DNA of 64,000 nucleotides from Afipia sp. GAS231 (GTDB lineage: Bacteria; Pseudomonadota; Alphaproteobacteria; Rhizobiales; Xanthobacteraceae). The notes under the pieces are model-generated. The model did no database searches. It was not told the DNA's origin and worked only from the letters and a program-made list of their open reading frames with translations. The translations under genes were made by a program, and so were the position numbers. Positions within the stretch are counted from its first letter, which is position 1. Every line of letters starts with the position of its first letter. The stretch is taken from the NCBI RefSeq assembly GCF_900103365.1, contig NZ_LT629703.1, positions 1,488,001 through 1,552,000 on the forward strand, read 5' to 3'. Below are positions 37,896 to 58,414 of the stretch, piece after piece.

Positions 37896-37916
37896 ATTAA
37901 CCGGTCAGCCGGATTA
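37896..37916. promoter_or_regulatory. TetR-type site A
   Basis: ATTAACCGGTCAGCCGGATT-A, 21 bp, upstream of the TetR gene. It agrees with site C at 18 of 21 positions. Part of the four-site set A (37896), B (41199), C (44718), D (58390). Confidence 0.75.
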
Positions 37917-37967
37917 ATTAATAGGGTCTTCCATGCGGCGGAGCAAGCGTAACCGGCCTCGCTGTTT

Positions 37968-38459
37968 CTACCGCTCGTCACCCGTGGCTATCTGATGAAG
38001 CATGGATTTGGGCGTCATCCCGATCTCGACCTTGAGCTGGTCGCGGATGAGGCCGCGAAGCGTGCGCGCGATTTCATCGGTCGCGACCGGCGCGCTGGCC
38101 CGGGCGCTTTCGCTCGTCGCCCACAACAGGAGTCCGCCGAGTTGGCGATCGCCCTCGTCCCGCAGCGCTTCGAGTTGCGCCGGGTCGGCAACCTCCGGTC
38201 CCGCGCGGGGCGTCGCGGGAATACGCGGATGTTGCAGCTTGTCCGCCAGCCGCCCGACCTCGGAGAATGCGGCATCCTGAAGCCGAATTTGTTCCAGCAA
38301 GGGCCCGGTCTTCCAGTCGGCCGCGAGTTTCAGGCCATTGAGGGCGAAAATGATCGAGAATACCTGACCGCGAACGAAATCGTCATCGCTCTTCGGCAGA
38401 ACATGCGTGCGCAACGCGTCGATCACGCCATCGACGACGACTTCGAAGGATTTGGTCAT
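37968..38459 (-). CDS. DUF6285 protein, partner of the phosphotransferase
   Basis: A 163-residue soluble helical protein: SFEVVVDGVIDALRTHVLPK, VFSIIFALNGLKLAADWKTG and EIARTLRGLIRDQLKVEIGM. DUF6285 genes regularly follow APH-like phosphotransferases next to acyl-CoA genes; here ATG 38459 overlaps the upstream stop (ATGA). By analogy with the LvaA/LvaB pair of levulinate catabolism, it may stabilise or activate the kinase, which is inference. A longer upstream start would run into the kinase gene. Confidence 0.78.
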   Translation of the reverse strand: MTKSFEVVVDGVIDALRTHVLPKSDDDFVRGQVFSIIFALNGLKLAADWKTGPLLEQIRLQDAAFSEVGRLADKLQHPRIPATPRAGPEVADPAQLEALRDEGDRQLGGLLLWATSESARASAPVATDEIARTLRGLIRDQLKVEIGMTPKSMLHQIATGDER

Positions 38460-39535
38460 GCCGCGGCCTCCAGCGCGCGATCGAAGGCACGCACAATCGA
38501 AGCCATCTGGCTTGCCATCACCGCCATCCGCATGTCGTTGAACCGGTCGACCTCGAAGGCATGGACCGCACACATCTGAATCGCGGCGGCCTGATACAGG
38601 GCGAAGGCCTCGTAAAAGGCCAGGCTTTTGCCGGATATCGGAATTCCGGACACGCGTTGATACAGATCGATCACCTCGTCGCGCTCGACCACACCATAGA
38701 ACTTGCGGCTTCCAGCGTTGAACGTCGGCATCAAGGCCCATGCAAGATCTTCGTGAGGATCGCCGAAATGCGTGAGTTCCCAGTCGAGAATGGCCGTGAT
38801 CTTCTGTTCTTGCTCGAGGAAGTTTCCGATCCTGTAATCGCCATGTACGACAGTCCGGCGCGGCGGCGGCGGACAGTTCTCCTCAAGCCAGCGGCCTCCC
38901 CAATCCAGCAGCGGGTAATATCGCGCCGTCGGCCGCGCCAGCGATGCACGCCAGACCCTGATGGCGCGAACCTCTCCTCTCGCTTCGCCGGCGACATCTG
39001 ACGCAGCCAGCGATGTCCCTCTCCAGTCGAACTTGTGCAGTTCGCCCAATATCGCGACGAATTGCCCGGCGATGTTGCGACGGTGATCTTGACTGAGCCC
39101 ACTGCTGGCCCAGGGCGCCGGCACTTCGCCCTCGACATGCGCGCACACGAAGAAGGGAAAACCGATTTCGGCGCCTTCCTCGTCAAAGCTGACGAGAGCG
39201 GGAACCGGCACCGCCGTTCCGGCCAGGGATTGCAGCGCGTTCACCTGGGGCAGAACCGAATAGGGAGCGAACAATCCGTTCGGCGGCCCGACGCGCAGAA
39301 TCAGCTTGCGGTCGGGACTTGATGGCCGCCGCGCGACGAAGCTGTAGGTGATCCAGGAAAATCCGGAAGATTTGCGGGCGAAGTCAGCAATTGCGACCTC
39401 GCCGCCGAATTTGCGGCCGAGATGCACAGCGAGCGCAGTTCGGATGACGCTGTCATCCACGACCTTGGACGGCAGCGAAACCGGGTCGGCGGTCGTGCGC
39501 GGCACGCGGTCGGATGGTGCGGCGGTCCCCTGCAT
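38456..39535 (-). CDS. APH-family phosphotransferase (LvaA/ACAD10-like)
   Basis: A 359-residue kinase-like protein. The N-lobe has DFARKSSGFSWITYSFVARR and KLILRVGPPNG; the catalytic loop is TVVHGDYRIGN and the metal-binding segment AILDWELTHFGDPHEDLAWA. This subfamily is the one that phosphorylates 4-hydroxyacyl-CoA in LvaA and in the kinase domain of ACAD10/11, not antibiotics. It sits between an acyl-CoA ligase and DUF6285 with overlaps on both sides (TGATG and ATGA), so the three form one translational unit. ATG 39535 is chosen; upstream codons overlap the ligase gene. Confidence 0.83.
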   Translation of the reverse strand: MQGTAAPSDRVPRTTADPVSLPSKVVDDSVIRTALAVHLGRKFGGEVAIADFARKSSGFSWITYSFVARRPSSPDRKLILRVGPPNGLFAPYSVLPQVNALQSLAGTAVPVPALVSFDEEGAEIGFPFFVCAHVEGEVPAPWASSGLSQDHRRNIAGQFVAILGELHKFDWRGTSLAASDVAGEARGEVRAIRVWRASLARPTARYYPLLDWGGRWLEENCPPPPRRTVVHGDYRIGNFLEQEQKITAILDWELTHFGDPHEDLAWALMPTFNAGSRKFYGVVERDEVIDLYQRVSGIPISGKSLAFYEAFALYQAAAIQMCAVHAFEVDRFNDMRMAVMASQMASIVRAFDRALEAAA

Positions 39536-41088
39536 CAGTTGACCGAACGCGAATAACCGCGCCACTTCTCCTCGCGCAGCGCGGATTTCATGATCTTTCC
39601 GGAGCCCGTCAGCGGCAGCGGATCGAGACGAATCTCGACCGACCGCGGGCACTTGTAGCCGGCGATCAGTGTTCGGCAGTGGGCAATGACCATTTCCGGC
39701 ACCAGCGCCCGGCCTTCCTTCGGCACCACGATGGCGTGGACCGCCTCGCCCCAATGCGGGTCAGGAACGGCAATGACTGCACACTCTCTCACATTCTCGT
39801 GCTGGAAGATCGCATTCTCGACCTCGCCGGAATAGACGTTCTCCCCACCGGAGACGATCATATCCTTCAGACGATCGACAATGTAGACGAATCCATCCTC
39901 GTCCATCCACGCGCAGTCGCCGGTATGCAGCCAGCCGCCGCGCAACGCGCGCGCTGTCTCCTCCGGCTTGCGCCAGTATCCGAGCATCACGCCCGAGCCG
40001 CGGATGGCAATCTCGCCGACGCTGCCGCGCGGCAATTCCTTGCCCGCATCATCGACAATTCGAAGCTCGACGCCCGGCGCCGCGCGCCCGGCGGACTTTC
40101 GCTTCTCCGCGACCGGCCCTTCGAGCGCGTGGTACTTCCACGGCAGGATGGTCGCGAGCGCCGCGCATTCGGTCATTCCATATCCCTGATGGAAGCGCCA
40201 GCCGGGAAGGACCTTCATGAGCTTGACGAGAAGGGCATCCGGCATCGGCGAGGCGCCGTATTCGCAATCCTTGACGCTGCTCAAATCATATTGCCCGAAC
40301 GAAGAATGGTTCAGCATCATGTTGAGCATGGTCGGGACGAACAGACAGTAGTCCACCTTGTGGGCAGCTATGGCTTTCATCGCGGCTTCCGGCTCGAACC
40401 TGGAAATGGTCACGTGCGTGCCGCCGACGAGCGTCAACGCGACCATCGGGGAAGTGCCGGCGAGATGAAACAACGCGGCCGAATGCAGATAGCGGGTGTC
40501 CTCCCTGAAATTGAGCGAGTAGATCCACACTAGGGACTCGTAAATGATGTTGGCGTGGGACAGCATCACCCCTTTCGGGAAACCCGTGGTGCCCCCGGTA
40601 TAGAAAATGCCGGCCAGTTCGTTGTCGGCGCCCGACATATCCTCGACCGGATCCTCTTCGGCGAGCGCTGCGTAGCTGAGCATGCCCTCCGGCGCGCGTC
40701 CCTCACCTACGTAAACCAATGCAGCCAGTGGCTGCGACGCCCTCAATTCCACGGCCATTGCCGCGAAGGCGTCATCGACCAGCAGAACGACCGGCTCGGA
40801 GTCCCTCAGGACATAGGCGTTCTCCGCAGCCGCCCAGCGCGTGTTAAGCGGCACCGCAACCGCGCCGGCCCAAGCGATGGAATAAAAGGCTTCAATATAG
40901 AGATCGCTGTTGAAGGCGAGGATCGCGATGCGATCGCCACCCTTAACGCCGAGCCGACGAAATCCGCCTGCCGCACCGGCAACCCTGTGGCCGATCTCCT
41001 TCCATGTGCGCGAGCGGCCGACATGAATGGTGCCGACATTGTCCTTGCGCAGCTGGACCGCCGAGGTAAGCGCCTGCGTCAACTTCAT
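39535..41088 (-). CDS. Acyl-CoA synthetase (AMP-forming)
   Basis: A 517-residue adenylate-forming ligase of the fatty-acid/aromatic-acid CoA ligase family. The AMP-binding motif is YTGGTTGFPKGVMLSHAN, later HQGYGMTECAA, GWLHTGDCAWMDEDGFVYIV, DRLKDMIVSGGENVYSGEVE and the catalytic Lys region LPLTGSGKIMKSALRE. It should activate a carboxylic acid with ATP and CoA as the first intracellular step. Operon with phosphotransferase and DUF6285, divergent from a binding-protein gene; site B lies between them. Confidence 0.9.
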   Translation of the reverse strand: MKLTQALTSAVQLRKDNVGTIHVGRSRTWKEIGHRVAGAAGGFRRLGVKGGDRIAILAFNSDLYIEAFYSIAWAGAVAVPLNTRWAAAENAYVLRDSEPVVLLVDDAFAAMAVELRASQPLAALVYVGEGRAPEGMLSYAALAEEDPVEDMSGADNELAGIFYTGGTTGFPKGVMLSHANIIYESLVWIYSLNFREDTRYLHSAALFHLAGTSPMVALTLVGGTHVTISRFEPEAAMKAIAAHKVDYCLFVPTMLNMMLNHSSFGQYDLSSVKDCEYGASPMPDALLVKLMKVLPGWRFHQGYGMTECAALATILPWKYHALEGPVAEKRKSAGRAAPGVELRIVDDAGKELPRGSVGEIAIRGSGVMLGYWRKPEETARALRGGWLHTGDCAWMDEDGFVYIVDRLKDMIVSGGENVYSGEVENAIFQHENVRECAVIAVPDPHWGEAVHAIVVPKEGRALVPEMVIAHCRTLIAGYKCPRSVEIRLDPLPLTGSGKIMKSALREEKWRGYSRSVN

Positions 41089-41198
41089 ATTTCCCTCCCT
41101 TGCCGGCGCCGCGGATCTTTCCGTCGAGCCTTTGATCTAGAGCCCGCCGGTTCTCCGTGAATCCGAACAGACCGAGCCCGGCCGGACAAATCAGTTGA

Positions 41199-41222: not shown

Positions 41223-41315
41223 TGCACGGGCAGCGTTGCCGGTAAAGCCTTCGCCGCGATGTCCGTAGCAATCAGCCAAGCCGCGCAAAGACGGCGGCAA
41301 ACCCAGGGGGAAGCA

Positions 41316-42542
41316 ATGCGAAGAGCCTGTTCTTTGTTGGCGGTATGGACGTTGACCCTCGGATGCACGTTGGGAACAGCATTTGCCGAGAACGCGTACG
41401 GACCGGGCGTAACGGACCACGAAATCAAGCTTGGGACGAACGCCCCCTACAGCGGCCCGGCATCGATCTATGCAAGCTTCCCGCGCACGATGCTGGCCTA
41501 TTTTGCGATGTTGAACGAGAAAGGCGGGATCAACGGTCGGCAGATCAATATGCTGACCCGTGACGATGCCTATAGCCCGCCAAAGACCGTCGAGGTGACG
41601 CGGTCACTGGTCGAAAACGACAACGTGCTGGCCATCATGGCGCCGTTCGGGACGCCGACCAACGCGGCGATCCAGAAATACCTCAACACCAACGGCGTGC
41701 CACAGTTGCTGGTGCAAAGCGGCGGCACGCGATGGAACGACCCCAAGCAGTATCCGTGGACCACGCCCTACTCGCCGACCTACGTCAATGAATCCAAGAT
41801 CATCGCGCGCTACCTGCTGCAGACCAAGCCGGACGCCAAGGTTGGCATCCTGCTGCAGGCCGACGACATCGGAAAGGACTTCATTGCCGGCCTGAAAGAA
41901 GGGCTCGGCGCCAAGTCGGATACGATGATCGTCAAGGAGGCCAGCTATCAAGCGACCGAGCCGACCATCGATTCGCAGATCGTCAATCTGAAAGCATCGG
42001 GCGCCGATACGATTCTGATTGCCGCACAGAACAAGTTCGCTTCGATGGCGATCCGCAAGATCCATGAATTGGGATGGAAGCCGTTGATATTCCTCGGTTC
42101 GACCGCGAACTCGATCGCCGGCGTTCTTGCGCCAGCCGGGCTCGACGCCTCGACCGACATTCTGACGACGACGTCCTACAAGACCCCCAACGATCCGACA
42201 TGGGCTGCGGACAGGGGAATGATCGACTATCTGACGTTCATGGCGAAACATATGCCCGGGCAGGATCCCAACGATGTCATCGCGGTCACGGCGTACACGA
42301 CCGCACACCTCGGTGCGATCATTCTGGAACGATGCGGCAACAATCTCACCCGGGAAAACGTGCTCAAGCAGGCCACGAGCCTGAAGGGCGTCGCGTTGCC
42401 GATGTTGCTCCCGGGCATAGCGATCCAGTCAAATCCTGCAGATTATGCGGCCATCACGCAGCGCCAGTTTGCGCGCTTCGACGGCAAGACCTGGGTGCTG
42501 TTCGGCGACGTCATCGGTGCCGATTCCGGTGCCAAGGACTGA
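41316..42542 (+). CDS. Liv-type ABC substrate-binding protein (orphan)
   Basis: Periplasmic binding protein of 408 residues. Signal peptide (LLAVWTLTLGCTLGTAFA), then the PBP type 1 start TDHEIKLGTNAPYSGPASI and LNEKGGINGRQINMLTRDDA, ALNEGG-type features and VAVTAYTTAHLGAIIL. It has no permease gene beside it and would need to feed the LivHMGF channel encoded at 46135-51632, or another. GGGGGAAG lies just before ATG 41316. The first gene of a unit with the CrtC-like gene and the thioesterase, next to site B. Confidence 0.88.
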   Translation: MRRACSLLAVWTLTLGCTLGTAFAENAYGPGVTDHEIKLGTNAPYSGPASIYASFPRTMLAYFAMLNEKGGINGRQINMLTRDDAYSPPKTVEVTRSLVENDNVLAIMAPFGTPTNAAIQKYLNTNGVPQLLVQSGGTRWNDPKQYPWTTPYSPTYVNESKIIARYLLQTKPDAKVGILLQADDIGKDFIAGLKEGLGAKSDTMIVKEASYQATEPTIDSQIVNLKASGADTILIAAQNKFASMAIRKIHELGWKPLIFLGSTANSIAGVLAPAGLDASTDILTTTSYKTPNDPTWAADRGMIDYLTFMAKHMPGQDPNDVIAVTAYTTAHLGAIILERCGNNLTRENVLKQATSLKGVALPMLLPGIAIQSNPADYAAITQRQFARFDGKTWVLFGDVIGADSGAKD

Positions 42543-42601
42543 CCGCGCGATAGCGCGTGTATGAGACCTGCAACGGCCTTTGGCTTCCGGGGAGAACAAG
42601 A

Positions 42602-43717
42602 ATGCTAACCGCTCAAGACGACCTGATCGGCCACCAAACACCCGCCCCGTTTGCAACGTCGGGCGCCGGCGACGCCCGTTTCACCGAACGCTATTGGTAC
42701 ACCGCCCATCCGATCGACGGCAGCGAACTGCTGTTCGATGCCGGGCTCGGCTACTATCCGAACAAGGACGTGATGGACGCCTTCGCCGGACTGACTATCG
42801 GCCGGCGGCAATATAATTTCCGCGCCTCGCGCCGACTCGGCGGACGTCCCCTCGAAACATCGGTCGGGCCTTTTCGGATCGAGATCGTCGAGGGAATGAA
42901 GCGGCACCGGCTCACGTTGGTGGAAAACCCCTCCGGAATCAGCTTTTCGCTCGAATTCGAGGCCAGCTTTCCTTCGGCCCAGGAGAAACAAAACTACCGC
43001 GAGCGCGACGGCCTCGTTGAGGAAGACCTCGCGCGCGTATCGCAGTTCGGCCGCTGGCGCGGCTGGATCGTCGTCGATGGCCGGCGCTTCAACGTCGAAC
43101 CAGCGATGTGGTGGGGACAGCGCGACCGTTCCTGGGGCTTGCGCTCGGAAATGCGGACGGACGAAACCAGGCCGCCGGTCGCGACGCACCGGAATTTCTT
43201 CTGGACCTGGTCGATGTTTCAATTCGAAACCTCGGCCCTGTCGATCTTCCTGAAGGAGCGCTCTCCGGGCAAGCCGCACTATCTGTCCGGAACCGAGTTC
43301 AAGCGGGAATCCGACGGATCGGTATCGCACCGCGAGGTCGTCGCGGTCGAGCACCGGATCGACTGGGCCAACGATCCGCTCGGACAGACGATCGCGAACG
43401 GCGATCTGACTTTCCAGTTCGATCGAGGCGCACCACGCCAGGTGAAGATGCACGGGCTTCCGACACGTTTTTATCTGAAAGCCGGCATGTATGGCGGCCT
43501 GCAGGGATGGACCCATGGCGACGATCGCGGCGACTATTATGCCGCGCACGATGTCTGGAATCTCGACGATCCCGCAACGCGGGAGGTCGCGCGCACGCTG
43601 TCGGATCACGTCATCAAACTGGAGAGCGCCGGCGATGTCGGATTTGGCATCAGCGAATACGGCGTTGCCACCGGATATCCGCTCTATGAAGGCCCGCAAA
43701 AATTCCCCGCGCTGTGA
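42602..43717 (+). CDS. CrtC-like (DUF7064-type) protein
   Basis: A 371-residue protein with no signal peptide. It resembles hydroxyneurosporene-synthase/CrtC-like and DUF7064/7065-type proteins: ERYWYTAHPIDGSELLFDAG, FRASRRLGGRPLETSVGPFR, NVEPAMWWGQRDRSWGLRSE and AHDVWNLDDPATREVARTLS. These have an attractin/lipocalin-like double beta-barrel that binds hydrophobic isoprenoid-like molecules and in CrtC hydrates them. In this cluster it may hydrate or bind the hydrophobic substrate. GGGGAGAACAAGA precedes ATG 42602. Family assignment moderate. Confidence 0.65.
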   Translation: MLTAQDDLIGHQTPAPFATSGAGDARFTERYWYTAHPIDGSELLFDAGLGYYPNKDVMDAFAGLTIGRRQYNFRASRRLGGRPLETSVGPFRIEIVEGMKRHRLTLVENPSGISFSLEFEASFPSAQEKQNYRERDGLVEEDLARVSQFGRWRGWIVVDGRRFNVEPAMWWGQRDRSWGLRSEMRTDETRPPVATHRNFFWTWSMFQFETSALSIFLKERSPGKPHYLSGTEFKRESDGSVSHREVVAVEHRIDWANDPLGQTIANGDLTFQFDRGAPRQVKMHGLPTRFYLKAGMYGGLQGWTHGDDRGDYYAAHDVWNLDDPATREVARTLSDHVIKLESAGDVGFGISEYGVATGYPLYEGPQKFPAL

Positions 43718-43747: not shown

Positions 43748-44669
43748 ATGAAAGAGGGATCCTTCGATTGCGCACCTGCAATCGGATCGGCCTGCGACGT
43801 CTGGGACGGTATCGACGTTGAAGCGCTGGTTTCGCTCGAGACCGTCGGCGCGCACCGCTACCGCAGTCGTTATGGCGACGGCAATCTGAATGGACGCCTA
43901 TGGCGGCCAGGTTCTTGGCCAGGCCATGATGGCGGCGTCGCTGAGCGTTCCCGAGGACCGGCCGGCGTCAACCTTCCAACTGCTGTTTCTTCGCGGCGCC
44001 GATCCCGGCCATCGGATCGACTTCGAGGTCAGAATTCTTCAGGACGGCAAGCGGTTCTCGTCGCGGCATGTCTTCGGCTACCAAGGGGACGGACGCGCCG
44101 TCCTCAACGCCCAAGCGACATTTTGCACTCCGCAATCGGCGCCCGGCCATGCCGTACCCTCGTCCGCTCCGGAAGAGAACCCAGAGGATTTGCCGGAACT
44201 GACTGTTCTGCCACCTGCGCTGATGGAGGGCTTGCGTCCGTTGGCGCCGTACTCGAATCTGGTCAAGCCGTGCATGGATTTTCGTATTCCGGGCATCGAA
44301 CGCCAGCTTGTGGCGAAAACCGCGCAATCGCGGTTGCGATTCTGGTTGCGCGGCAAACATCCGCTCGCCGGTGATATTCGCGCGAAAGCGGCCGTGTTCG
44401 CCTATCTGTCGGACTGGTGGCTCAATTTCAGCAGCCTCGGCAGTCACCTCCGCGACCTGCAGTCGCAGCCACCGCTCTACATCGCGAGCCTCAATCACTG
44501 CATCTGGTTCCACCGCGCATTTTCCCCCGACGAATGGATGCACTTTGAATCCGAAAGCGCTTGCGCCGACGGCGGTCGCGGCCTGTCGATCGCCCGCATC
44601 CATGATCGCGCCGGGCTGATGCTGGCGACCGCGACCCAGGAAACGCTGATGGTCCATTCGGGCGCGTAA
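43748..44669 (+). pseudogene. TesB-type acyl-CoA thioesterase with a frameshift
   Basis: The first frame gives VWDGIDVEALVSLETVGAHR and GDGNLNGR, then the second frame from about 43897 continues YGGQVLGQAMMAASLSVPED, FFLRGADPGH-type sequence and SLNHCIWFHRAFSPDEWMHF, ESESACADGGRG. Together these make a complete double-hotdog acyl-CoA thioesterase II of about 305 residues. Between NLNGR and YGGQ the reading frame changes; family members have A there (NLNGRAYGGQ), so about two bases seem to be missing. It is either inactivated or a sequencing error. It would release CoA from pathway intermediates. Confidence 0.82.
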
Positions 44670-44815: not shown

Positions 44816-46129
44816 GTGGCGCGTGAAAAGATGGATGCCGTCGTGATCGGAGCCGGCGCGGGTGGGCTGTGCGTCGCCGCGCGGCTGTCCCATGCCGGGC
44901 TGCATACGTTGGTGGTGGACGACAAGGGCCGGCTCGGCGGCCGGGCCTCGACCGAACAAATCGAAGGCTTTACCGTCAACATCGGCGCCATCGCCATCGA
45001 ACTCGGCGGTGTGTTCGAAGAGACCTTCAACACCGTCGGCGTTCCCCTCGATATCCGCACGCCGGAGCCGGCCTCCTCCTTTTTCATCGACGGCAAGTTG
45101 ATCGACGTCGGCCGCGGCGGCTGGTCGCTGCTGCTCGGGCAGCTGACAAAACAGGCCTCACGTATCCTGGAAAAATTCGCGGATGCGCGCTCCGGCAATC
45201 TTCCGGACGGGCGGCAATCGACCGAGGACTGGCTCAAGAGCTACACCGGCAATGCCACGGTGCACGCGCTGTTCCGCAATCTCTGCGCGGCAATCTTCGC
45301 CTGCAACGCCGATGAATTGCCGGCCCGCGCCTTCCTGACCTATTTCACCAGCAAGGGCGCGTTCAAGCGCTTTGGATTTTGCCCGCAGGGCACGATCGGG
45401 GTCTGGAACGCACTCGGCACCGCTATCAAACGGAACGGCGAGATCTGGCTCGCGACGCCAGCGCTGCAAATTCACACGACCGACGGCCGCGTTGAAGGTG
45501 TAACGGTGGTCCGGGATGGCCAGCAGATCCGGATCGACACCGATCTCGTCATCAGCAACGCCGGTCCCAAGGCGACTGTTGCGCTGGCGGGCGAAGCAGC
45601 GTTCCCTTCTGCCTACATCGAGAAGGTTCGCACCGGGCTCAAGCCCGCGGCCAATATCGTCATCAATATCGCGAGCCGCGAGCCGCTGATTTCGCACCCC
45701 GGCATCGTGACCTTCGGCAAGACGCGCCGTCTCTGCAACATGGCCAATCTCACCGCCACCTGCCCCGAACTGGCGCCGCCCGGCTGGCATCTTTATGTCG
45801 CCTACGCCGTGCCGATCCCGGCGCTCGGCGATTTCGATTCCGACGCCGAGGTCGAGCTGGCGCTGACCGACCTGCGTGAGCAGTTTCCGAATTTCGGCCA
45901 GGCGAAAGTCCTCTCGATCCGGGTGATGCGGGATGACTGGCCGGCACAACGCAGCTGCGCCGGCTACGATCTGCCGCGGGAGACCGGCATCGAAGGCCTG
46001 TGGTGCGTCGGCGACGCGGTGAAGCAATATGGCAATGGCGGCACGCAAGCCTGTGCGGAAACCGCAAAACTCGTCACCGATGCGATCCTCGCCAGCCGGC
46101 CGCGCGTTGCGCAGGCCGGCAGGGTCTAG
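44816..46129 (+). CDS. Phytoene-dehydrogenase-like FAD oxidoreductase
   Basis: A 437-residue FAD protein. The Rossmann start is VIGAGAGGLCVAARLSHAGL, then GRLGGRASTEQIEGFTVNIG (arginine-bearing dinucleotide-binding segment) and the C-terminal GLWCVGDAVKQYGNGGTQAC. It belongs to the CrtI/NAD(P)-dependent amine-oxidase-like group that desaturates or isomerises isoprenoid-like molecules. It starts the liv operon: GTG 44816 has GAGGGAGG 6 bases upstream, and livF follows 5 bases after its stop. An FAD desaturase in a transport operon suggests it acts on the imported compound. Confidence 0.85.
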   Translation: MAREKMDAVVIGAGAGGLCVAARLSHAGLHTLVVDDKGRLGGRASTEQIEGFTVNIGAIAIELGGVFEETFNTVGVPLDIRTPEPASSFFIDGKLIDVGRGGWSLLLGQLTKQASRILEKFADARSGNLPDGRQSTEDWLKSYTGNATVHALFRNLCAAIFACNADELPARAFLTYFTSKGAFKRFGFCPQGTIGVWNALGTAIKRNGEIWLATPALQIHTTDGRVEGVTVVRDGQQIRIDTDLVISNAGPKATVALAGEAAFPSAYIEKVRTGLKPAANIVINIASREPLISHPGIVTFGKTRRLCNMANLTATCPELAPPGWHLYVAYAVPIPALGDFDSDAEVELALTDLREQFPNFGQAKVLSIRVMRDDWPAQRSCAGYDLPRETGIEGLWCVGDAVKQYGNGGTQACAETAKLVTDAILASRPRVAQAGRV

Positions 46130-46134
46130 CATCG

Positions 46135-46989
46135 ATGCCGGCGAAGATCGCAACGCGAGCGGGCAACACCGGCGGTCAGACGACGCCTGCCCCACCGTGC
46201 CTGCTCGAATTCCGCAACATTCGCATCGTCTACGACAATGCCATCGAGGCGATCCGGGACGTCAGCATTGCGGTGCCCCAGGGCGGCATCGTCGCCTTGC
46301 TCGGCTCCAACGGCGCCGGCAAGTCGACGCTGTTGAAGGCAATGTCGGGAATTCTCTACACCGAGGAAGGCGTAATCGAGAACGGCACGATCCGCTTCCG
46401 CGGCGAGGACGTGCATCACCTCGCGCCCGATGAGCTGGTACGGCGCGGCATCGTCCAGGTGCCGGAGGGCCGCCGGGTGTTTCCGGCGCTGACCATCGAC
46501 GAAAACCTGCAGATGGGCGGCTACACCAAAACCGCCGCCGAGGCGCGCGAGCGACGTGAGACGGTGTTCGCATTGTTCCCGCGGCTGTTCGAGCGCCGCG
46601 GCCAGATCGCCGGCTACATGTCCGGCGGCGAGCAGCAGATGCTGGCGATCGGCCGTGCCCTGATGACCGATCCGGTGCTGCTGGCGCTCGATGAGCCGTC
46701 GCTCGGCCTCGCGCCGCTGATCATCGACCGCATCTATGAAGTGATCGCCAAGCTGCGCGATGAGATGAAGATGACGGTGCTGCTGGTCGAGCAGAACGCG
46801 CAGCGCGCGCTCGATATTTCCGACTACGGCTACATCCTGGAGACCGGCCGCGTCGTCCTCGACGGCTCCGCGAAGAAACTCGCCGCCAATGAGGACGTCC
46901 AGGAATTCTATCTTGGCGTCTCCAATTCCGGGCGCAAGAGCCTGCGCGACGTCAAGCACTACAAACGGCGCAAACGGTGGCTGTCGTGA
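46135..46989 (+). CDS. Liv-type ABC ATPase (LivF)
   Basis: A 284-residue cytoplasmic ATPase of the branched-chain-type importer. Walker A GSNGAGKST, signature MSGGEQQMLAIGRALM, Walker B LLALDEPSLGLAPLII and the switch His region VLLVEQN. A C-terminal basic tail (DVKHYKRRKRWLS) overlaps the start of the next gene. A GTG start option is absent, and ATG 46135 begins the predicted leader. It follows the FAD enzyme directly and forms one operon to 52824. Confidence 0.92.
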   Translation: MPAKIATRAGNTGGQTTPAPPCLLEFRNIRIVYDNAIEAIRDVSIAVPQGGIVALLGSNGAGKSTLLKAMSGILYTEEGVIENGTIRFRGEDVHHLAPDELVRRGIVQVPEGRRVFPALTIDENLQMGGYTKTAAEARERRETVFALFPRLFERRGQIAGYMSGGEQQMLAIGRALMTDPVLLALDEPSLGLAPLIIDRIYEVIAKLRDEMKMTVLLVEQNAQRALDISDYGYILETGRVVLDGSAKKLAANEDVQEFYLGVSNSGRKSLRDVKHYKRRKRWLS

Positions 46990-51663: not shown

Positions 51664-52824
51664 ATGATCAAATATCTGGCGAGCGCGTCGCTGCTGCTCG
51701 CGGGCGCGTATCTCACGGCCGGCCCTGCGCTTTCCGCCGATCCCGGTATCACCGATACCGAAATCCTGATCGGCGACGTCGAGCCCCTCACCGGCCCACC
51801 GGCGCTGCTCGGCGTGGCCGCTTCGATCGGCCACAAAATCGCGATCGCGGAAGCCAACGTCGCCGGCGGCATCAACGGCCGCAAGATCAAGTATGTGCTG
51901 GAAGACGACGGCTACGTCACCGCCCGCACTATCCAGGGCGTCAAGAAGGTGATCGATGTCGACAAGGTGTTTGCGATGCTCGGTATCTCCGGCTCGGGTC
52001 AATCCATCGCCGTGATGCCGGTGCTGGAAAAGGCGGGCATCCCCACCGTCATCGACGTGGCGCCGGTCAAATTCCTCTGGGAACCGCCGCGCAAGAACGT
52101 GTTCGTGGTCGGGCAATCCTACGAGGAAGGCATCATCCACCTCGTCAATTATCTCGCCGACAGGAACCCCGGCAAGAAATGGGGCCTGATCACCCAGGAC
52201 GACGATTACGGCATCACCGTGCGCGACGGCTTCGATACCGTGGTCAGGGCCAAGAAGCTCAACGTGGTCTACAGCGGCAACTACAAGAAGGGCCAGCAGG
52301 ATTTCTCGTCCGACATGCTGCAACTGAAGGATTCCGGCGCCGAGGTGTTTTTGGCCGGTGGCATCATCGGCGAGAACATCGCGATGATGAAGGAACTGGA
52401 GAAGCTCAACATCAAGCCTGTCACGGGCATCTTCTGGCCCGGACGGGTCGAGCCGGTGCTGAAGCTGATGGGTCCGGCCGGCGACGGCATCTACGCCGTC
52501 GACTATGTCGAACCGTTCGCGGGCACTGCCGGCAAGGCGTTTCTGGAAAAGGCCAAGGGCCTGCTTCCGGAAGCCGAGATGAAAGGCATCAACCGCTACA
52601 GCATGACCGGCTATGCCGCCGCAAAAGTACTGATCGAGGCGATCGGGCGTTGCGGCAAGGACCCGACCTGGGCCTGCACCATCGCTGAACTGGAAAAGAC
52701 CAAAAACGTCGAAACCGGCGTCATGGCGCCGATTACCTTTGGCCCCGGCGTCCGGTTCTCGAACCAGAGGCTGCAGATCATGCAGGCTGAAACGGCAACG
52801 CTGAGCTTCAAGCCGGTGAACTGA
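51664..52824 (+). CDS. Liv-type ABC substrate-binding protein
   Basis: A 386-residue periplasmic binding protein. Signal peptide (LASASLLLAGAYLTAGPALS), then DTEILIGDVEPLTGPPALLG and EANVAGGINGRKIKYVLEDD. AGGAGGAGG lies directly before the ATG, a very strong ribosome-binding site that fits the excess of binding protein over channel. It ends the liv operon. The match to branched-chain amino-acid binders is in fold only. Confidence 0.92.
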   Translation: MIKYLASASLLLAGAYLTAGPALSADPGITDTEILIGDVEPLTGPPALLGVAASIGHKIAIAEANVAGGINGRKIKYVLEDDGYVTARTIQGVKKVIDVDKVFAMLGISGSGQSIAVMPVLEKAGIPTVIDVAPVKFLWEPPRKNVFVVGQSYEEGIIHLVNYLADRNPGKKWGLITQDDDYGITVRDGFDTVVRAKKLNVVYSGNYKKGQQDFSSDMLQLKDSGAEVFLAGGIIGENIAMMKELEKLNIKPVTGIFWPGRVEPVLKLMGPAGDGIYAVDYVEPFAGTAGKAFLEKAKGLLPEAEMKGINRYSMTGYAAAKVLIEAIGRCGKDPTWACTIAELEKTKNVETGVMAPITFGPGVRFSNQRLQIMQAETATLSFKPVN

Positions 52825-52865
52825 GCAACGAGACGCTGGCCGGCACGCCTCGCGCCGGTCAACCC

Positions 52866-54059
52866 TCACATCCGCTTGGCGACCTCTTCCAGCATGACCT
52901 CGGTGGCGCCGCCGCCGATGGTCAGCACCCGCGCATCGCGCACCATCCGCTCGATCGGCGTGCCGCGCATGAAACCGGTGCCGCCATGCAGCTGCAGGCA
53001 GCCATGCACGACCTCGTGCAGCACTTCCGGCGACAGCGCTTTCACCATCGACACTTCGCGCGGACAGGGCTTGCCGGCCTCGACGAGCTCCGCAGCATGA
53101 TAGGCGAGCGCCCGGGCGGCCGCGGCCTTGGTGGCGAGCGAGGCGAGCTTGAGCCGTACCGCCTGCTGGTTCCACAGCGGGCCGCCGAAGGCCTGCCGGC
53201 TCTTCACATAGTTCGTGGTGAGCTCGATCGCCTTGGCGGACTCGCCGGCGCAGATGCCGCCAATGCAGATGCGCTCGTTCTCGAAGGTTTCCATGATGCC
53301 GTAGAAGCCGCGGTTCTCCTCGCCCAGCAGGTTTCCGGCGGGGATCCGCACTTCCTGAAACCCGATCTCGGCGGTGTCGGAGCAAAGCCAGCCGTGCTTG
53401 TCGAGTTTTGTCACGGATATGCCGGGCGTCGTCCTCTCGACGATGAACAGCGAGATACCGCGGCTGCCCTTGGCGGCAGGATCGGTGCGCGCCGCGACGA
53501 TCAGGATATCGCCGTAGACCGCATTGGTGATGAACATCTTCGAGCCGTTGATCACCCAGCAATCGCCGTCGCGGCGTGCCCGCGTCTTCAGCCCGGCGAC
53601 GTCGGAACCCGCATCGGGCTCGGTCACTGCGATCGAGCAGATCGTCTCGCCGCGGATAATCGCAGGAAGATATTTCCGCTTCTGCTCAGGCGTGCCGCGC
53701 AGCGTGATGTGGACCGCCGACATGTCGGTATGAACCAGCACCGACGAGGTGAAACCGCCGAAGGTCGAACGTCCGAGTTCCTCGGCCCACACCATCGACG
53801 CCAGCGCGCCCATATCGGTGCCGCCGTATTCGGCCGAATGCCGCATGCCGAGGAAACCGAGCGCGCCCATGCGCCGGTAGATCTCGCGCGGGATCTTGCC
53901 GTCGCGCTCCCACTGCTCGCCATGCGGCACCACTTCCTTCTCGACGAACCGCCGCACCTGCTCGCGCAGCATCCGCAACTCCTCGGATAACTGCGGCTGC
54001 TCCGAGAATTGGAATTCACTGTCGGACTGGGCGCGGACATCGGTTGGCTTGACGTTCAT
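52866..54059 (-). CDS. Acyl-CoA dehydrogenase
   Basis: A 397-residue acyl-CoA dehydrogenase. Motifs: EYGGTDMGALASMVWAEELG, AVTEPDAGSDVAGLKTRARR, GFYGIMETFENERICIGGIC, CLQLHGGTGFMRGTPIERMV and RDARVLTIGGGATEVMLEEV. The Glu position of medium-chain enzymes (the E of YEGT) is Gly here, so the catalytic base must be elsewhere, as in isovaleryl- or long-chain-type enzymes. ATG 54059 overlaps the stop of the hydrolase (ATGA). Distal gene of the minus-strand operon that starts at the Rieske gene. It introduces a double bond into the CoA ester. Confidence 0.9.
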   Translation of the reverse strand: MNVKPTDVRAQSDSEFQFSEQPQLSEELRMLREQVRRFVEKEVVPHGEQWERDGKIPREIYRRMGALGFLGMRHSAEYGGTDMGALASMVWAEELGRSTFGGFTSSVLVHTDMSAVHITLRGTPEQKRKYLPAIIRGETICSIAVTEPDAGSDVAGLKTRARRDGDCWVINGSKMFITNAVYGDILIVAARTDPAAKGSRGISLFIVERTTPGISVTKLDKHGWLCSDTAEIGFQEVRIPAGNLLGEENRGFYGIMETFENERICIGGICAGESAKAIELTTNYVKSRQAFGGPLWNQQAVRLKLASLATKAAAARALAYHAAELVEAGKPCPREVSMVKALSPEVLHEVVHGCLQLHGGTGFMRGTPIERMVRDARVLTIGGGATEVMLEEVAKRM

Positions 54060-54994
54060 GGCGATGCCCTTTCGGCTTTGAGATGGAGGTGCCGGTCGAG
54101 AAACAAGGCGATGTCGGCGACGGCCCGATGCGCCTCGGCAAGTTCCCCACCGAACATCTGGAAGACATGGATCATGCCATTCCAGACCTGCAGATCAACC
54201 GTGACACCGGCGGCGCGCGCTTTGCCCGCCAACATCACGGAATCGTCCAGGACGGTTTCGCGGTCGCCGACCTGGATCAAGAGCGGCGGCAAGCCCGCGA
54301 AATCGGCGTAGAGCGGCGAGACTAGAGGATCCCGAGGATCGCCCTCTCCGCCCAGATAATTCTTCGCCAGCGCCAGGATCATCGCACGCTGATGGATCGG
54401 ATCGGCCTCGGCTCGGCTTAGATAACTCGCGCCGGTCGCCGCCAGATCGGTCCAGGGCGACATCAGCGCAGCCGCCGCCGGTAGCGGGCGCTTGTTATCG
54501 CACAACGCCAGCATCGCGGCGAGCGCGAGATTGCCGCCGGCGGAATCTCCGGCAAAGGCGATATTGGCGGGCTTCAATCCCTGCTGCAGCATCCAGTCGT
54601 AGGCCGCGAGCGCATCATCAAGCGCAGCCGGGAATCGATGCTCCGGCGCCAGACGATAATTGATGGCGAGCACACGACAGCCGCTGGCCAAAGCGATCTG
54701 CGCGATCAGGTCGCGGTGCGAGGTGACCGAGCCGATCCGAAAGCCGCCGCCATGGAAGTAAAGAATGGCCCTGTCCTTCGGCGCGTCGGCCGGCAATATC
54801 CATTCACCGTCAACACCGCCCGCAGTAACTTGCTCGCACTTCACTGGAGCCATCGTACCGCCGAAAGCAGCATCCCAGTCGCTGCGCATCTGCGCCACGG
54901 TCGTGTCGCGGTTCCAGTTCCGGTACACCGCGCGGATACGCGCGATCGCCCGATCGATCGGAGCCGGCGTGATGTCTTGAGCCGCGCGTGCCAT
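54056..54994 (-). CDS. HSL-type alpha/beta hydrolase
   Basis: A 312-residue esterase of the hormone-sensitive lipase group. The oxyanion motif is YFHGGGFRIGS, the nucleophile is in AFAGDSAGGNLALA, the acid lies in VGDRETVLDD and the His in GMIHVFQMF. It hydrolyses an ester or lactone, probably of the imported substrate. ATG 54994 follows the SDR stop with one base between; its stop overlaps the dehydrogenase start. The upstream frame extends without a good start. Confidence 0.88.
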   Translation of the reverse strand: MARAAQDITPAPIDRAIARIRAVYRNWNRDTTVAQMRSDWDAAFGGTMAPVKCEQVTAGGVDGEWILPADAPKDRAILYFHGGGFRIGSVTSHRDLIAQIALASGCRVLAINYRLAPEHRFPAALDDALAAYDWMLQQGLKPANIAFAGDSAGGNLALAAMLALCDNKRPLPAAAALMSPWTDLAATGASYLSRAEADPIHQRAMILALAKNYLGGEGDPRDPLVSPLYADFAGLPPLLIQVGDRETVLDDSVMLAGKARAAGVTVDLQVWNGMIHVFQMFGGELAEAHRAVADIALFLDRHLHLKAERASP

Positions 54995-54995
54995 C

Positions 54996-55757
54996 TCAGC
55001 CGCCCACTCCCATGCCGCCCGATACGCCGATGGTTTCGCCGGTGATATAGGCCGCTTGATCGGACGCCAGGAAGCGCGCGGCGGCAGCGACTTCCTCGGG
55101 CTCGCCGAGACGCCGCAACAGCGTGGCATCGGTCATGGCGTGCAGGATCTTGTCGCCGCCCTTTGCGACGGCCGCTTCCAGCATTGGCGTCCGGATCGGG
55201 CCCGGCGCAATTGAATTGGCGGTGATGCCGAAGCGCGCATTTTCACGCGCGATGCTTTTGGTGAAGGCGATCACACCGCCCTTGGCGGCGGAATAGACAG
55301 CGCCGCCCCTGGAGCCGAGCCGGGCCGCTTCCGACGTGATGTTGATGATGCGTCCAAAGCCGGCCGCCTGCATCGCCGGCAGCGCGGCATGGGTGCATGC
55401 AAGAGCTGAAACCAGATTGACCGCAAGCAGCTTCACCCAGTCTTCCGGCGTGGTGTCGGTAAAAAACGCGTGTTGATCGAGGCCGGCATTGTTGACGATG
55501 ATATCGAACGGCCCCTGCTGTGCCATGGCCTGCTGCACCATGCCGGTGTCGCTGACATCGAGCTTGACCGCGGCCGCGCCGACCTGCCCTGCCAGTTCCG
55601 ATGCCGTTGTAATGTCGAGATCACCGATCACGACCTTTGCGCCGGCGCCCGCAAAGCTTCGCACGATTGCCGCGCCGATACCGTGCGCGCCACCCGAGAC
55701 GAAGGCGCGACGGCCGTCGAGCCGCCCGAAGGGCAACAAGGTGCTGCCAGAAGGCAC
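54996..55757 (-). CDS. Short-chain dehydrogenase/reductase
   Basis: A 253-residue SDR. Cofactor motif FVSGGAHGIGAAIV, NNAGLDQHAFF, catalytic Ser in INITSEAARLG and YSAAKGGVIAFTKSIARENA with Tyr and Lys. The Asp in VIGDLDITT after the second strand favours NAD(H). It may oxidise a 3-hydroxyacyl-CoA or hydroxy acid in this pathway. The start is GTG 55757. Confidence 0.9.
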   Translation of the reverse strand: MPSGSTLLPFGRLDGRRAFVSGGAHGIGAAIVRSFAGAGAKVVIGDLDITTASELAGQVGAAAVKLDVSDTGMVQQAMAQQGPFDIIVNNAGLDQHAFFTDTTPEDWVKLLAVNLVSALACTHAALPAMQAAGFGRIINITSEAARLGSRGGAVYSAAKGGVIAFTKSIARENARFGITANSIAPGPIRTPMLEAAVAKGGDKILHAMTDATLLRRLGEPEEVAAAARFLASDQAAYITGETIGVSGGMGVGG

Positions 55758-55760
55758 TTG

Positions 55761-56555
55761 CTAGCGCCCCGTAAACTTCGGCTTGCGCCGTTCGATGACG
55801 GCGGCAAGGCCCTCGCGCGCGTCGGCCATGCCCGAAAGTTCAGAGACGGTCCGCGCCTCCTCGGACAGGCATTGTTCGATACTGCTGCCGGACCCGGCCC
55901 AGACCAGTCGCTTGGTCGCAGCCAGCGCCTTCGGCGCGCCGGCCGCCAGCTCCCGCGCAAGCGCCAGTGACGCCTCACTTAGTTCTTCGTCAGCCACGAC
56001 CTTGGTGACGATGCCCATCTCCAGCGCCTCGGGCGCTGATATGACCGGATTGGTCAACAGAATCGACATTGCGCGGCGCAAGCCGACCAGCCGCGACAGC
56101 GTGACGGAGACGCCGGCATCCGGCGCCATCGCCACCCGCGTCGCACCGGCCAGGAATTTGGCGGATGCGCCAGCGATCACGATATCGGAGGCGCAAACCA
56201 GACCGAAGCCACCGCCGCCCGCGGCAAAGCCATGTACCGAAGCGATCACGGGTGCTTCCAACCGTAACAACCCCGTTACCGCGTTCTGCAGGTAAGCGGT
56301 GGCCTGGCGGATATAGGCCGGCAATTTTTCGCCCTTGGCCGCAAAAGCACGGACATCACCGCCGGCACAGAAATTCGCACCCTCGCCGCTCAGGATCAAC
56401 ACGCGCAGATCCGGCTGGCCGTGGCAGACCATGATGGCGTCGCACAGCGCGCTCAAGAGTTCTGCGCTCATGCCGTTGGCCGCATCTGGCCGGTTGAGCC
56501 GCAACCGCGCGATGCCGTCGGCGATATCGAGCAAAACAGGTCCCGTGTCGATCAT
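55761..56555 (-). CDS. PaaG-like crotonase-family protein
   Basis: A 264-residue crotonase. GANFCAGGDVRAFAAKGEKL and HGFAAGGGFGLVCASDIVIA form the oxyanion hole. Both Glu positions of enoyl-CoA hydratase are replaced (E144 by Gly; E164 by a non-acidic residue), while MAPDAGVSVTLSRLVG keeps the Asp of PaaG-type enoyl-CoA isomerases (PDxGxTxxLPR). Isomerisation is therefore more likely than hydration. ATG 56555 is used; a longer start adds 5 codons. Between the SDR and the ring-hydroxylase beta gene in the operon. Confidence 0.87.
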   Translation of the reverse strand: MIDTGPVLLDIADGIARLRLNRPDAANGMSAELLSALCDAIMVCHGQPDLRVLILSGEGANFCAGGDVRAFAAKGEKLPAYIRQATAYLQNAVTGLLRLEAPVIASVHGFAAGGGGFGLVCASDIVIAGASAKFLAGATRVAMAPDAGVSVTLSRLVGLRRAMSILLTNPVISAPEALEMGIVTKVVADEELSEASLALARELAAGAPKALAATKRLVWAGSGSSIEQCLSEEARTVSELSGMADAREGLAAVIERRKPKFTGR

Positions 56556-56573
56556 TGCCAGACTTCCCAAAGG

Positions 56574-57068
56574 CTAGATGAGGAACGAAAGCGTAAACAG
56601 CGCCTTCTCGTTGTTGACCAAGATCACCTTCTTGTAGGCCATCCGCAGTTCGCCATCGACATAGCGCAGCCGGTATTCGTTGCGGGCGGCCCAGATCGTG
56701 TCGTCGCGCAGGCTCGATTCGAAGATCATGCTGTTGCTGGCAACTGCGATGTCGCCGTCCGCTTGGTCCTCGAGCAGCTCGATATTGGAGACCAGGCGCC
56801 GCAGCCGCGACTGCGGCGTCTGGGTATGGTGCTTACCTGTGAGCAATTGCTTGACCCGCAGCGAGATGCGCGAGCGGTTGTCGTAAATGATCGACATTTC
56901 CTTCTCGGGATCGATATCGGCGCCGTTGGCCGGCACCCAATAGACCCCGTCATCCGTCCATAATGCTTCCCAGGCCTCGTATTGATGCTCGTCCTGGAAT
57001 CGCGCCTCCTTGTAGATGAAGGCGGTCACCGCGCTCATCAGCGTGGCACTGCTCTCGCGCGACAGCAT
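56574..57068 (-). CDS. Ring-hydroxylating oxygenase, beta subunit
   Basis: A 164-residue beta subunit (NTF2-like fold). Motifs: AFIYKEARFQDEHQYEAWEA, LWTDDGVYWVPANGADIDPE, SRISLRVKQLLTGKHHTQTP. It supports the hexameric oxygenase and has no redox centre. Its ATG overlaps the alpha stop (TAATG), so the two subunits are made together. Confidence 0.9.
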   Translation of the reverse strand: MLSRESSATLMSAVTAFIYKEARFQDEHQYEAWEALWTDDGVYWVPANGADIDPEKEMSIIYDNRSRISLRVKQLLTGKHHTQTPQSRLRRLVSNIELLEDQADGDIAVASNSMIFESSLRDDTIWAARNEYRLRYVDGELRMAYKKVILVNNEKALFTLSFLI

Positions 57069-58327
57069 TACACCGGCTCCATCAGCTTGCGATAATGGCG
57101 CCAGATGCCGCGTGAAGGCACCTCGTCGGTGACATGGCCGACCTTGAAGCCGAGTTCATCCTGATGTTCGCGTTTTTCGCCACGGCCCAGGAATATCCAT
57201 TCGGGACTGCGCGCCAGGACGCCGCGATGGCAACGCTCGTACATCTCGGAATCATCGGCCAGCAGCAATCCGGCCGGCCCCACCGATCCCATGGTCTGCT
57301 GGCGCAAACGCCGGTTCATGTCGGGCACGCCCTTGAACTGCAATGCCGTGACATGCTGCACGCTGTCGGCGACCGCAAGCGGCTGAATCACGAACATCTG
57401 TATTTCCGCGATGAACAGGTTCGGAAAGATCATCACATGCGGCGTGCCGTCGATCATGATCTCGCGCGCCTGCTGATCGCCATAGGCGGCCTTCATGCGC
57501 GCGGTGTAGTCCGGCAGCCGCTCTTCCGTGGTGCCGAACCAGCTCATCGGCACATCGCGCTTGCGAAACTCGGGGCGCAGATCGATTTCGGTATGGCCGT
57601 TGCCGTAGTCGCGCGTCAACGCGGTGGAAGCGCCGCCGTAGAGTTTTCCGATCGCGCTGTCGGCGACGCCGAAGATCGAGGAATGCACGAATGCCGGATG
57701 GTAGCCGTCGCATTCGTTTTCCAGGATGAATTTCCAGTTGGCCTTGACGCGATGCTTCAGGAATCCCGCGGTGACCTCGACCTCGCCTTCCGGCGAGGTG
57801 CGGACCAGGCGATCGATGGTCTCGGCCGCGCCGCCGAGATGCTCTTCCAGCGTCGGGCCTTCAGCAGCGAACGAGCCAAATACAAAGCCGCGATAGGACT
57901 GCACGCGCGTGACGCGGCCGAGCGCCAGCTTTGTTCGGTCCTGGCCTTCATAGCCGTCCGGGAAGGCATAGCCGACCAGACGGCCGTCATTGGCAAAGGT
58001 CCAGGAATGGAACGGGCAGGTAAAGGATCGCGCATTGCCTTTGTCGTAGGAGCAGACCTGATTGCCACGGTGCGAACAGCGGTTGAGCAGCAGGTTGACC
58101 TTGCCCTGCTCGTCGCGCGTCATGATGACCGATTGCGGGCCGATCGACTTGACGATGTAATCGTTGGCTTTGGGAACCTCGCTCTCGTGCCCGACATAGA
58201 CCCAGGTGCGGTACCAGATGTTCTGCAGTTCGGCCTCGAAGATCGCGGGATCGCTATAGAGCGAGCCATGCACCCGGTCCGGCCGGATCAGTTCCCCCCA
58301 TTGCGACGCGCGCGGCATGACGTTCAT
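57068..58327 (-). CDS. Rieske ring-hydroxylating oxygenase, alpha subunit
   Basis: A 419-residue large subunit. The Rieske [2Fe-2S] ligands are C84, H86, C104 and H107 (NRCSHRG ... TCPFHSW) and the mononuclear iron site is D207-x-YH-x4-H (ENECDGYHPAFVHSS, H210 and H215). It adds oxygen to an aromatic or other unsaturated acid (derivative). No ferredoxin or reductase gene is in the window, so electrons must come from elsewhere. ATG 58327 has GGGAGG upstream. First gene of the minus-strand operon, with TetR-type site D in its promoter. Confidence 0.92.
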   Translation of the reverse strand: MNVMPRASQWGELIRPDRVHGSLYSDPAIFEAELQNIWYRTWVYVGHESEVPKANDYIVKSIGPQSVIMTRDEQGKVNLLLNRCSHRGNQVCSYDKGNARSFTCPFHSWTFANDGRLVGYAFPDGYEGQDRTKLALGRVTRVQSYRGFVFGSFAAEGPTLEEHLGGAAETIDRLVRTSPEGEVEVTAGFLKHRVKANWKFILENECDGYHPAFVHSSIFGVADSAIGKLYGGASTALTRDYGNGHTEIDLRPEFRKRDVPMSWFGTTEERLPDYTARMKAAYGDQQAREIMIDGTPHVMIFPNLFIAEIQMFVIQPLAVADSVQHVTALQFKGVPDMNRRLRQQTMGSVGPAGLLLADDSEMYERCHRGVLARSPEWIFLGRGEKREHQDELGFKVGHVTDEVPSRGIWRHYRKLMEPV

Positions 58328-58389
58328 CGCTGCACCTCCCATAGCTGCCCTACGGCTCTCTTGCGGAGACCTGCGGCATCCGTTAAAAA

Positions 58390-58414
58390 TAATCCGACCG
58401 ACCGTTCTAATAAT
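58390..58414. promoter_or_regulatory. TetR-type site D
   Basis: TAATCCGACCGACCGTTCTA between the divergent Rieske and NTF2-crotonase genes. On the other strand GAACGGTCGGTCGGATTA is almost the same as sites A and C. It is a palindromic-looking CCGA/TCGG array and probably controls both directions. Confidence 0.75.

Follow-up and report, generated by a model that had tools for sequence, protein, structure and literature searches.

Does a single TetR-family protein control an entire catabolic gene cluster in Afipia sp. GAS231? The question is raised by a 64,000-nucleotide stretch of contig NZ_LT629703.1 (positions 1,488,001 to 1,552,000; hereafter the window), in which a tetR gene and four similar operator-like sites, A to D, lie among genes for transport, coenzyme A (CoA) ligation and ring hydroxylation. 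An initial annotation had proposed a single TetR regulon, and this reading is well supported by comparative genomics, namely by the co-occurrence of sites and regulator, their closeness and the positions that the sites keep in other genomes. The TetR encoded at 37099-37737 is very probably a cluster-specific repressor acting at A, B, C and D, which would make the cluster a local catabolic regulon. By our own estimate, this protein very likely binds C and D, while for A and for B binding is in each case probable.

Operator-like sites and their regulator

Candidate sites were graded by a strict pattern, AMCGRNCRKYCGGATTAWW, fixed from the window and seven relatives, and by a matrix of 34 distinct sites of other genomes (31 columns, 39 bits), which contains no window site and no B-class site. 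The regulator gene and the candidate operators are as follows.

37099..37737, minus strand: tetR, TetR/AcrR-family regulator of 212 amino acids (Pfam TetR_N, TetR_C_24)
37900..37918, plus strand: operator A, 163 bp upstream of tetR; strict pattern with 0 mismatches; 19.2 bits
41193..41223, minus strand: operator B, between the divergent CoA ligase and binding-protein genes; 12.5 bits
44722..44740, plus strand: operator C, about 76 bp before the gene of a flavin adenine dinucleotide (FAD)-dependent enzyme, FAD/transport operon; strict pattern with 0 mismatches; 50.4 bits
58388..58406, minus strand: operator D, between the Rieske and NTF2-crotonase genes, upstream of the Rieske operon; strict pattern with 0 mismatches; 49.8 bits

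All four 21-mers were found where the initial annotation had placed them, at 37896 (+; A, ATTAACCGGTCAGCCGGATTA), 41199 (-; B, ATAGACCGTCTATCCGGATTA), 44718 (+; C, ATTGAACGGTCAGTCGGATTA) and 58390 (-; D, TTAGAACGGTCGGTCGGATTA). A recount of identical positions out of 21 (A-B 15, A-C 18, A-D 15, B-C 14, B-D 13 and C-D 18) returned the same figures as it had given for A-C, C-D and B-D. Its description of a 21-bp motif holds for the sites themselves, whereas the consensus it quoted has 18 letters. The sites are all intergenic, as it had stated, with A before tetR, C before the FAD gene, and B and D between divergent genes. Judged by the relatives, the Rieske gene begins at an ATG near 58330, rather than at the mechanically assigned TTG at 58438.

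Specificity of the sites in the host genome

Pattern searches covered the whole genome (7.58 Mb, single contig), while the matrix was applied to the window and to selected loci. The pattern AMCGGTCRGYCGGATTA matches the genome perfectly at A, C and D and nowhere else; one-mismatch matches are lacking, and there are ten at two mismatches. Up to three mismatches, there are 142 matches against 95 for the reversed pattern, so that most of the weaker ones can be put down to background. A, C and D are thus the unique strong sites of their own genome, and the earlier remark that no other site was noticed extends from the window to the genome at the level of 0-1 mismatches. Loose matching within the window is not decisive: the strict pattern at up to three mismatches has six matches there (2.35 expected), a number reached by 3 of 100 shuffles.

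The four sites are the four best places of the matrix in the window, in the order C, D, A, B, and the next place, reverse-strand readings of the same sites aside, scores 2.0 bits. In random sequence of the window's composition, matches of at least 12 bits are expected 0.085 times per 64 kb and about 10 times per genome. As the genome as a whole was covered by pattern searches, weak extra targets of the B kind may exist elsewhere in it, although B's own 25-bp sequence, at up to three mismatches, is present there just once. Forty-six loci chosen as negatives (145 kb in all; 27 weak pattern matches of the same genome and 19 distant TetR paralogue loci) held no site of at least 12 bits. A merely chance similarity of the sites is ruled out by the genome-wide match counts together with the co-occurrence with TetR described below.

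Co-occurrence with TetR

The distribution of the sites was followed in 146 Bradyrhizobium genomes, a sample from a larger group, in which TetR was called at E≤1e-50. TetR is present in 36 of them and the strict pattern in 35, all within those 36; the pattern is absent from all 110 TetR-negative genomes, and the reversed-pattern control gave no match in any of the 146. After removal of the eight genomes used in the design of the pattern, the split is 27/28 TetR-positive versus 0/110 TetR-negative genomes (Fisher p about 8e-28, shared ancestry not corrected for). The Rieske gene, asked for in 11 genomes, was present in TetR-positive G099 alone, which is the same split as that of TetR.

The matches also lie close to the regulator gene. 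Among the 66 strict-pattern matches, 35 are within 1.5 kb of tetR, a further 27 are on the same contig within 21.3 kb, and four are on another contig. These four are all in draft genomes, and three of their contigs also hold the binding-protein gene of the cluster (the fourth is that of G116). A spread of the sites through genomes is ruled out by the 62 of 66 matches within 21.3 kb of tetR. Rather than being scattered at random across the genome, the strict motif is limited to TetR-holding genomes and lies near tetR. The sites are real, occur with this TetR only among the sampled genomes, lie close to its gene and keep their positions.

Conservation in relatives and in distant loci

Among 41 genomes (the Afipia genome itself, 24 of the same genus and 16 of the same order), a whole tetR orthologue (69-80% identity) was found in seven relatives, and a fragment in one (G007). 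In the 40-60 kb taken around tetR in each of these seven, C and D are always present. In all seven, tetR adjoins the FAD gene in divergent orientation with one operator between them, which is the counterpart of C, and the Rieske promoter, about 14 kb away, has a second operator. G004 and G010 keep the palindromic core CGACCGGTCG at C.

A further set of 80 loci comprised 34 of Bradyrhizobium type, at least two of them from strains already used for the pattern, and 46 others. In 33 of the 34 Bradyrhizobium-type loci, the tetR-upstream site matches the strict pattern perfectly, and in the other it has one mismatch. The gene order differs in L114 and L247 (TetR 54% identical), where tetR and the Rieske gene diverge from each other around a single site. 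Beyond Bradyrhizobium, the matrix scan covered 17 of the 46 other loci, with the remaining 29 outside it, and returned 17 sites of at least 12 bits against 0.3 expected (18 loci, counting L114 of the training set). Seven of these distant loci (L115, L116, L117, L118, L120, L121 and L153), with a TetR 35-48% identical, keep the Rieske, crotonase, short-chain dehydrogenase (SDR) and lipase genes or part of them, and every one of the seven has one to four sites, 15 in total. Twelve of the 15 lie within 260 bp of the start of a cluster gene, the Rieske start in L115 and L117 being read from the sequence where the protein alignment overruns it; the other three are in L115 at 7589 and in L153 at 10879 and 14960.

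Two loci from these comparisons may carry damaged genes. At L246 (G073:C162), positions 14717-15106 hold a TetR fragment of 76% identity without an operator nearby, probably a decayed locus. At L245 (G134), positions 11040-12082, the match to the second permease gene is split into two overlapping pieces that lie in different frames, and the gene may be frameshifted there.

Conservation of site B

By similarity alone, B would not stand out genome-wide, and the case for it lies in its conservation. Close orthologues (at least 81%) of the B-side binding protein are found in 14 of the 146 genomes, the Afipia genome included, all of them TetR-positive (Fisher 3e-10), and the B site was found in all 14 loci. 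Of the 30 core positions of B, 26 do not vary among these loci, whereas the remaining intergenic sequence averages about 44% identity to the window when gaps count as differences. A 25-bp B sequence, at up to three mismatches, was found once in each of these 14 genomes and is missing from the remaining 132. B is thus very likely a functional element of the cluster, as judged from this conservation.

A rearrangement with probable operator duplication

In the window, tetR and the FAD gene are separated by a 6.7-kb block (37968-44669) that contains the genes of a small protein, a kinase and a ligase, site B, and the genes of a binding protein, an Rv3169-family protein and a thioesterase. In the five relatives whose order was seen (G004, L244, L245, L248 and L249), this block lies beyond the Rieske gene, and among genomes with the order seen, the window genome alone has it between tetR and the FAD gene. 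The distance from tetR to the binding-protein gene is 18-21 kb in ten other genomes that have both on one contig, versus 4 kb in the window.

Of the relatives' single tetR-FAD intergenic region, the tetR-side flank GATCTGGGTCAA is retained at A and the FAD side at C. As A and C both carry remnants of this one region, duplication of the operator during the rearrangement is the simplest explanation, and A, the weaker copy, appears to have decayed afterwards (19.2 versus 50.4 bits at C). The initial annotation's assignment of A to the tetR promoter is refined to a weakened duplicate of C, the seven relatives having the one C site between tetR and the FAD operon.

Promoter context and proposed mechanism

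B lies across a rightward promoter-like pair, -35 TTGATA (41195) and -10 TATTAT (41217), 16 bp apart. D stands directly after TTGAAG-17-TATTAT in the window, and at its promoter-like places the relatives keep CTTG (7/7) and TGCTATT (6/7). At C, a TATAAT is found at the operator edge in all eight genomes, with a -35 of reasonable match in six, and in the relatives this TATAAT is the -10 of a promoter-like pair aimed at tetR. The layout of C and D would be that of a repressor that controls its own gene as well as the FAD/transport and Rieske operons. Scans of 41080-58560 gave nine promoter-like sites where 3.9 were expected and 18 terminator-like sites where 12.7 were, each of which is weak evidence alone.

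In the window, the leftward pair at C (TTGCCT-18-TATAAT, 44735-44764, minus strand) is now aimed into the end of the thioesterase gene, not at tetR, and is possibly an orphan promoter.

The TetR protein matches TetR_N (PF00440) at 55.7 bits (cut-off 24) and TetR_C_24 (PF17932) at 79.5 bits (gathering score 26.4). Its predicted model is an all-helical two-domain fold (predicted local distance difference test score, pLDDT, 87.1), for which the best match is 3ccy (template modelling score, TM, 0.83), a structure whose title names no function. AibR, PfmR, KstR2 and FadR are within the first ten fold matches. Structures of AibR and FadR are titled as acyl-CoA complexes, and that of KstR2 with reference to cholesterol metabolism. 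The Bacillus FadR model NF053878 is not reached (51 bits, cut-off 200). By analogy with these proteins, the best guess for the inducer would be an acyl-CoA.

We propose that TetR, as a dimer or pair of dimers, would bind A, B, C and D upstream of the cluster operons, with B, C and D overlapping or adjoining promoter-like hexamers. It would block RNA polymerase, repressing rather than activating, and it would be released by a pathway metabolite, most likely an acyl-CoA from one of the cluster's CoA ligases. The operon limits that we infer are tetR alone, three plus three genes at B, seven at C and six plus one at D, about 21 genes that may form a single uptake and degradation pathway.

Alternative explanations

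Several observations weigh against one repressor for all four sites. The core of the sites is an imperfect palindrome, with 6 to 9 of its 12 pairs matching at the best centring, and at A the promoter hexamers found are weak (7 of 12) and the flanking conservation is lost. Eight of the 17 scanned distant loci are without any site of at least 12 bits. G073, the sole TetR-positive genome without the pattern, has a fragmentary TetR match, no site and no Rieske orthologue; G007, placed among the TetR-negative genomes, carries a fragment of TetR at the end of a contig and has neither the Rieske gene nor a site; and in G124 and G134 the D site is weaker (29.5 and 34.2 bits) and outside the strict pattern. 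The 475 fold matches of TetR at E≤0.001 mean that its fold neighbours say little about the ligand. The remaining points concern B, which has four mismatches to AMCGGTCRGYCGGATTA (by eye) and three to the strict pattern, reaches a score expected for about ten chance places in each genome, and has 13 orthologues among which two reach 21.1 and 16.8 bits, ten fall between 11.2 and 12.0, and one has 9.6.

These low scores, together with a differing core (ACCGTCTATCC versus ACGGTCAGTCG) and a dyad of its own (ATAGAC-C-GTCTAT), favour a narrower regulon, in which TetR binds A, C and D only, and B is a promoter with the operator of another regulator, so that the ligase/binding-protein block would stand outside. 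We consider this unlikely, as B is in register with the conserved flanks (ATAATCCG-N6-CGnTC, other strand), rises to the 21.1 bits noted above in relative L216, and is limited to 14 genomes that all hold this TetR. The shared register and outer bases, the two higher-scoring relatives and the lack of any other annotated regulator in 37738-59725 (a LysR gene lies at 62457) suggest that this TetR likely reads B. The proposal of one TetR for all sites is refined in that B is a divergent class, assigned to this TetR by its conservation and cluster specificity.

It would be an improbable outcome, though less so than a general promoter motif, if TetR were an activator, or if the sites were mainly autoregulatory with induction of the pathway via another regulator. 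Some TetR-family proteins do activate, and NCBIfam FasR, a named activator, is among the weak matches of this TetR; however, core promoter positions, where repressors usually act, are overlapped or adjoined by D and B, and D keeps its place at the Rieske promoter, some 14 kb away from tetR. That the motif is a common sigma-factor promoter element, or some other general feature, is hardly credible. The sites do touch -35/-10-like hexamers, but their offsets vary (B across them, D downstream, C from the -10 onward of a leftward promoter), and a general promoter element is strongly disfavoured by the absence of the strict motif from the 110 TetR-negative genomes of the sample. The preferred reading is still that of a local repressor acting on all four sites.

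Genes of the cluster

The genes on either side of the candidate operators were assigned from Pfam and NCBIfam models and from the comparison with relatives.

37968..38462, minus strand: small conserved protein, after the kinase gene; 58-63% identical in relatives
38456..39754 (mechanical open reading frame), minus strand: APH-fold kinase, related to the kinase part of ACAD11 (Pfam APH, 101.9 bits; PDB 8v3v, E 1e-17)
39535..41088, minus strand: AMP-dependent acyl-CoA ligase (Pfam; NCBIfam NF004837 above cut-off)
41259..42542, plus strand: periplasmic binding protein, Liv/Urt type (Pfam Peripla_BP_6)
42557..43717, plus strand: Rv3169-family protein (NCBIfam NF053593, 329 bits, cut-off 150)
43890..44669, plus strand: acyl-CoA thioesterase, TesB-like (Pfam)
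44816..46129, plus strand: FAD-dependent amine-oxidase/desaturase-like enzyme, first gene of the C operon (Pfam Amino_oxidase)
46000..46989 (mechanical start), plus strand: ATP-binding cassette (ABC) transporter ATPase, LivF-like (Pfam/NCBIfam)
46977..47780, plus strand: ABC transporter ATPase with a branched-chain amino acid transporter C-terminal motif (Pfam)
47777..49714, plus strand: long-chain-type acyl-CoA ligase (Pfam)
49714-50586 and 50586-51632, plus strand: two Liv-type permeases (Pfam BPD_transp_2)
51664..52824, plus strand: second periplasmic binding protein (Pfam)
52866..54059, minus strand: acyl-CoA dehydrogenase (Pfam)
54056..55129 (mechanical start), minus strand: hormone-sensitive-lipase-type hydrolase (Pfam Abhydrolase_3)
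54996..55757, minus strand: short-chain dehydrogenase (Pfam)
55761..56570, minus strand: crotonase, enoyl-CoA hydratase/isomerase (Pfam)
56574-57068 and 57068-58330, minus strand: ring-hydroxylating oxygenase beta subunit and Rieske alpha subunit (Pfam; alpha related to solved dioxygenases)
58538..59725, plus strand: SnoaL/NTF2-crotonase fusion, divergent from the Rieske gene (Pfam)

The real start of the small protein probably lies inside the open reading frame 37968-38741, and that of the kinase probably nearer 39535. The small protein has no Pfam match even at E 10, and no NCBIfam equivalog scored above its cut-off for the cluster enzymes scanned. The SnoaL/NTF2-crotonase gene occupies the same divergent place in three of the seven relatives. 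The Rv3169-family gene is kept in the B block of relatives.

The kinase and the small protein presumably resemble LvaA/LvaB. Because of the ACAD11 match, and of what published abstracts report, the kinase and its CoA ligase neighbour suggest a 4-hydroxyacyl-CoA branch, as in levulinate catabolism. It is possible, although we hold it with slightly more doubt than confidence, that the cluster encodes an undescribed aerobic pathway with a patchy distribution in Bradyrhizobium and other Alphaproteobacteria (Reyranella, Rhizobiaceae and Chelatococcus loci). Its chemistry would join that of a Rieske oxygenase to steps of CoA-ligase/crotonase/SDR type. In some genomes an ACAD11-like 4-hydroxyacyl-CoA kinase branch would also belong to the regulon via the variant operator B; in the window this branch would have moved between tetR and the FAD gene, the operator being duplicated in the process. 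A published description of this cluster was not found in the literature searched, largely without subscription papers.

A local TetR on several catabolic promoters is a well-known form of control, and the surprise here is modest. The locus is of value because one switch would govern a conserved oxygenase cluster that lacks an assigned substrate, along with its transporters, and because it offers a clean natural example of an operator copied when a cluster was rearranged. If true, it would be an example of a local regulon rewired by the movement of an operator-carrying block. The regulator would also offer a handle on the substrate, in that the compound whose CoA ester frees the repressor would name the pathway.

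Comparison with known systems

The closest known operator is that of PaaR of Burkholderia cenocepacia, a TetR repressor of phenylacetate genes that acts at several catabolic promoters through the operator ACCGACCGGTCGGT, according to the available text of its description (PMC2770484). The core of the PaaR operator is the one present at C of G004 and G010, while in the window genome it is degenerate with ATAAT-rich flanks. PaaR sites are described in the same text as lying between -10 and -35, as at B (PMC2770484). No scanned cluster protein reaches the cut-off of a paa model, the rest of the genome being outside this search, and the two PaaG-model scores of the crotonases are 163.8 and 196.5 bits against a cut-off of 345.15. 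In two distant loci, L122 at 6081 and L124 at 639 (TetR 35-36% identity), the matrix match is ATTATTCGACCGACCGGTCGGTCAAT, which contains the published PaaR operator and lies about 4 kb from TetR.

As a whole system, the closest analogue would be MbdR of Azoarcus sp. CIB, the TetR of 3-methylbenzoate degradation, for which the available text gives the first acyl-CoA as inducer (PMC4424350). There, one TetR is described as acting on an operon for an ABC transporter and a CoA ligase, on a catabolic operon and on its own gene (PMC4424350), and the MbdR structure 4uds is a sequence match to this TetR (E 6e-10). The two differ in that the MbdR operator ATACN10GTAT is absent from A-D (sites read by eye), and in that the MbdR pathway is anaerobic whereas an oxygenase is encoded here.

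AibR (5k7f/5k7h/5k7z), solved with isovaleryl-CoA and with operator DNA, is a neighbour in both sequence (E 1e-18) and fold. TTHB023/PfmR of Thermus thermophilus (3vpr) is likewise related in protein sequence (E 7e-13, 27-28% identity) and fold, although it regulates other genes. Its sites, such as ACTACCGACCGTTCGG in the available text, share the layout CGACCGTTCGG with the D sites of the relatives (PMC7022988). On these likenesses, the best reading is that A to D are putative operators of the PaaR/PfmR class.

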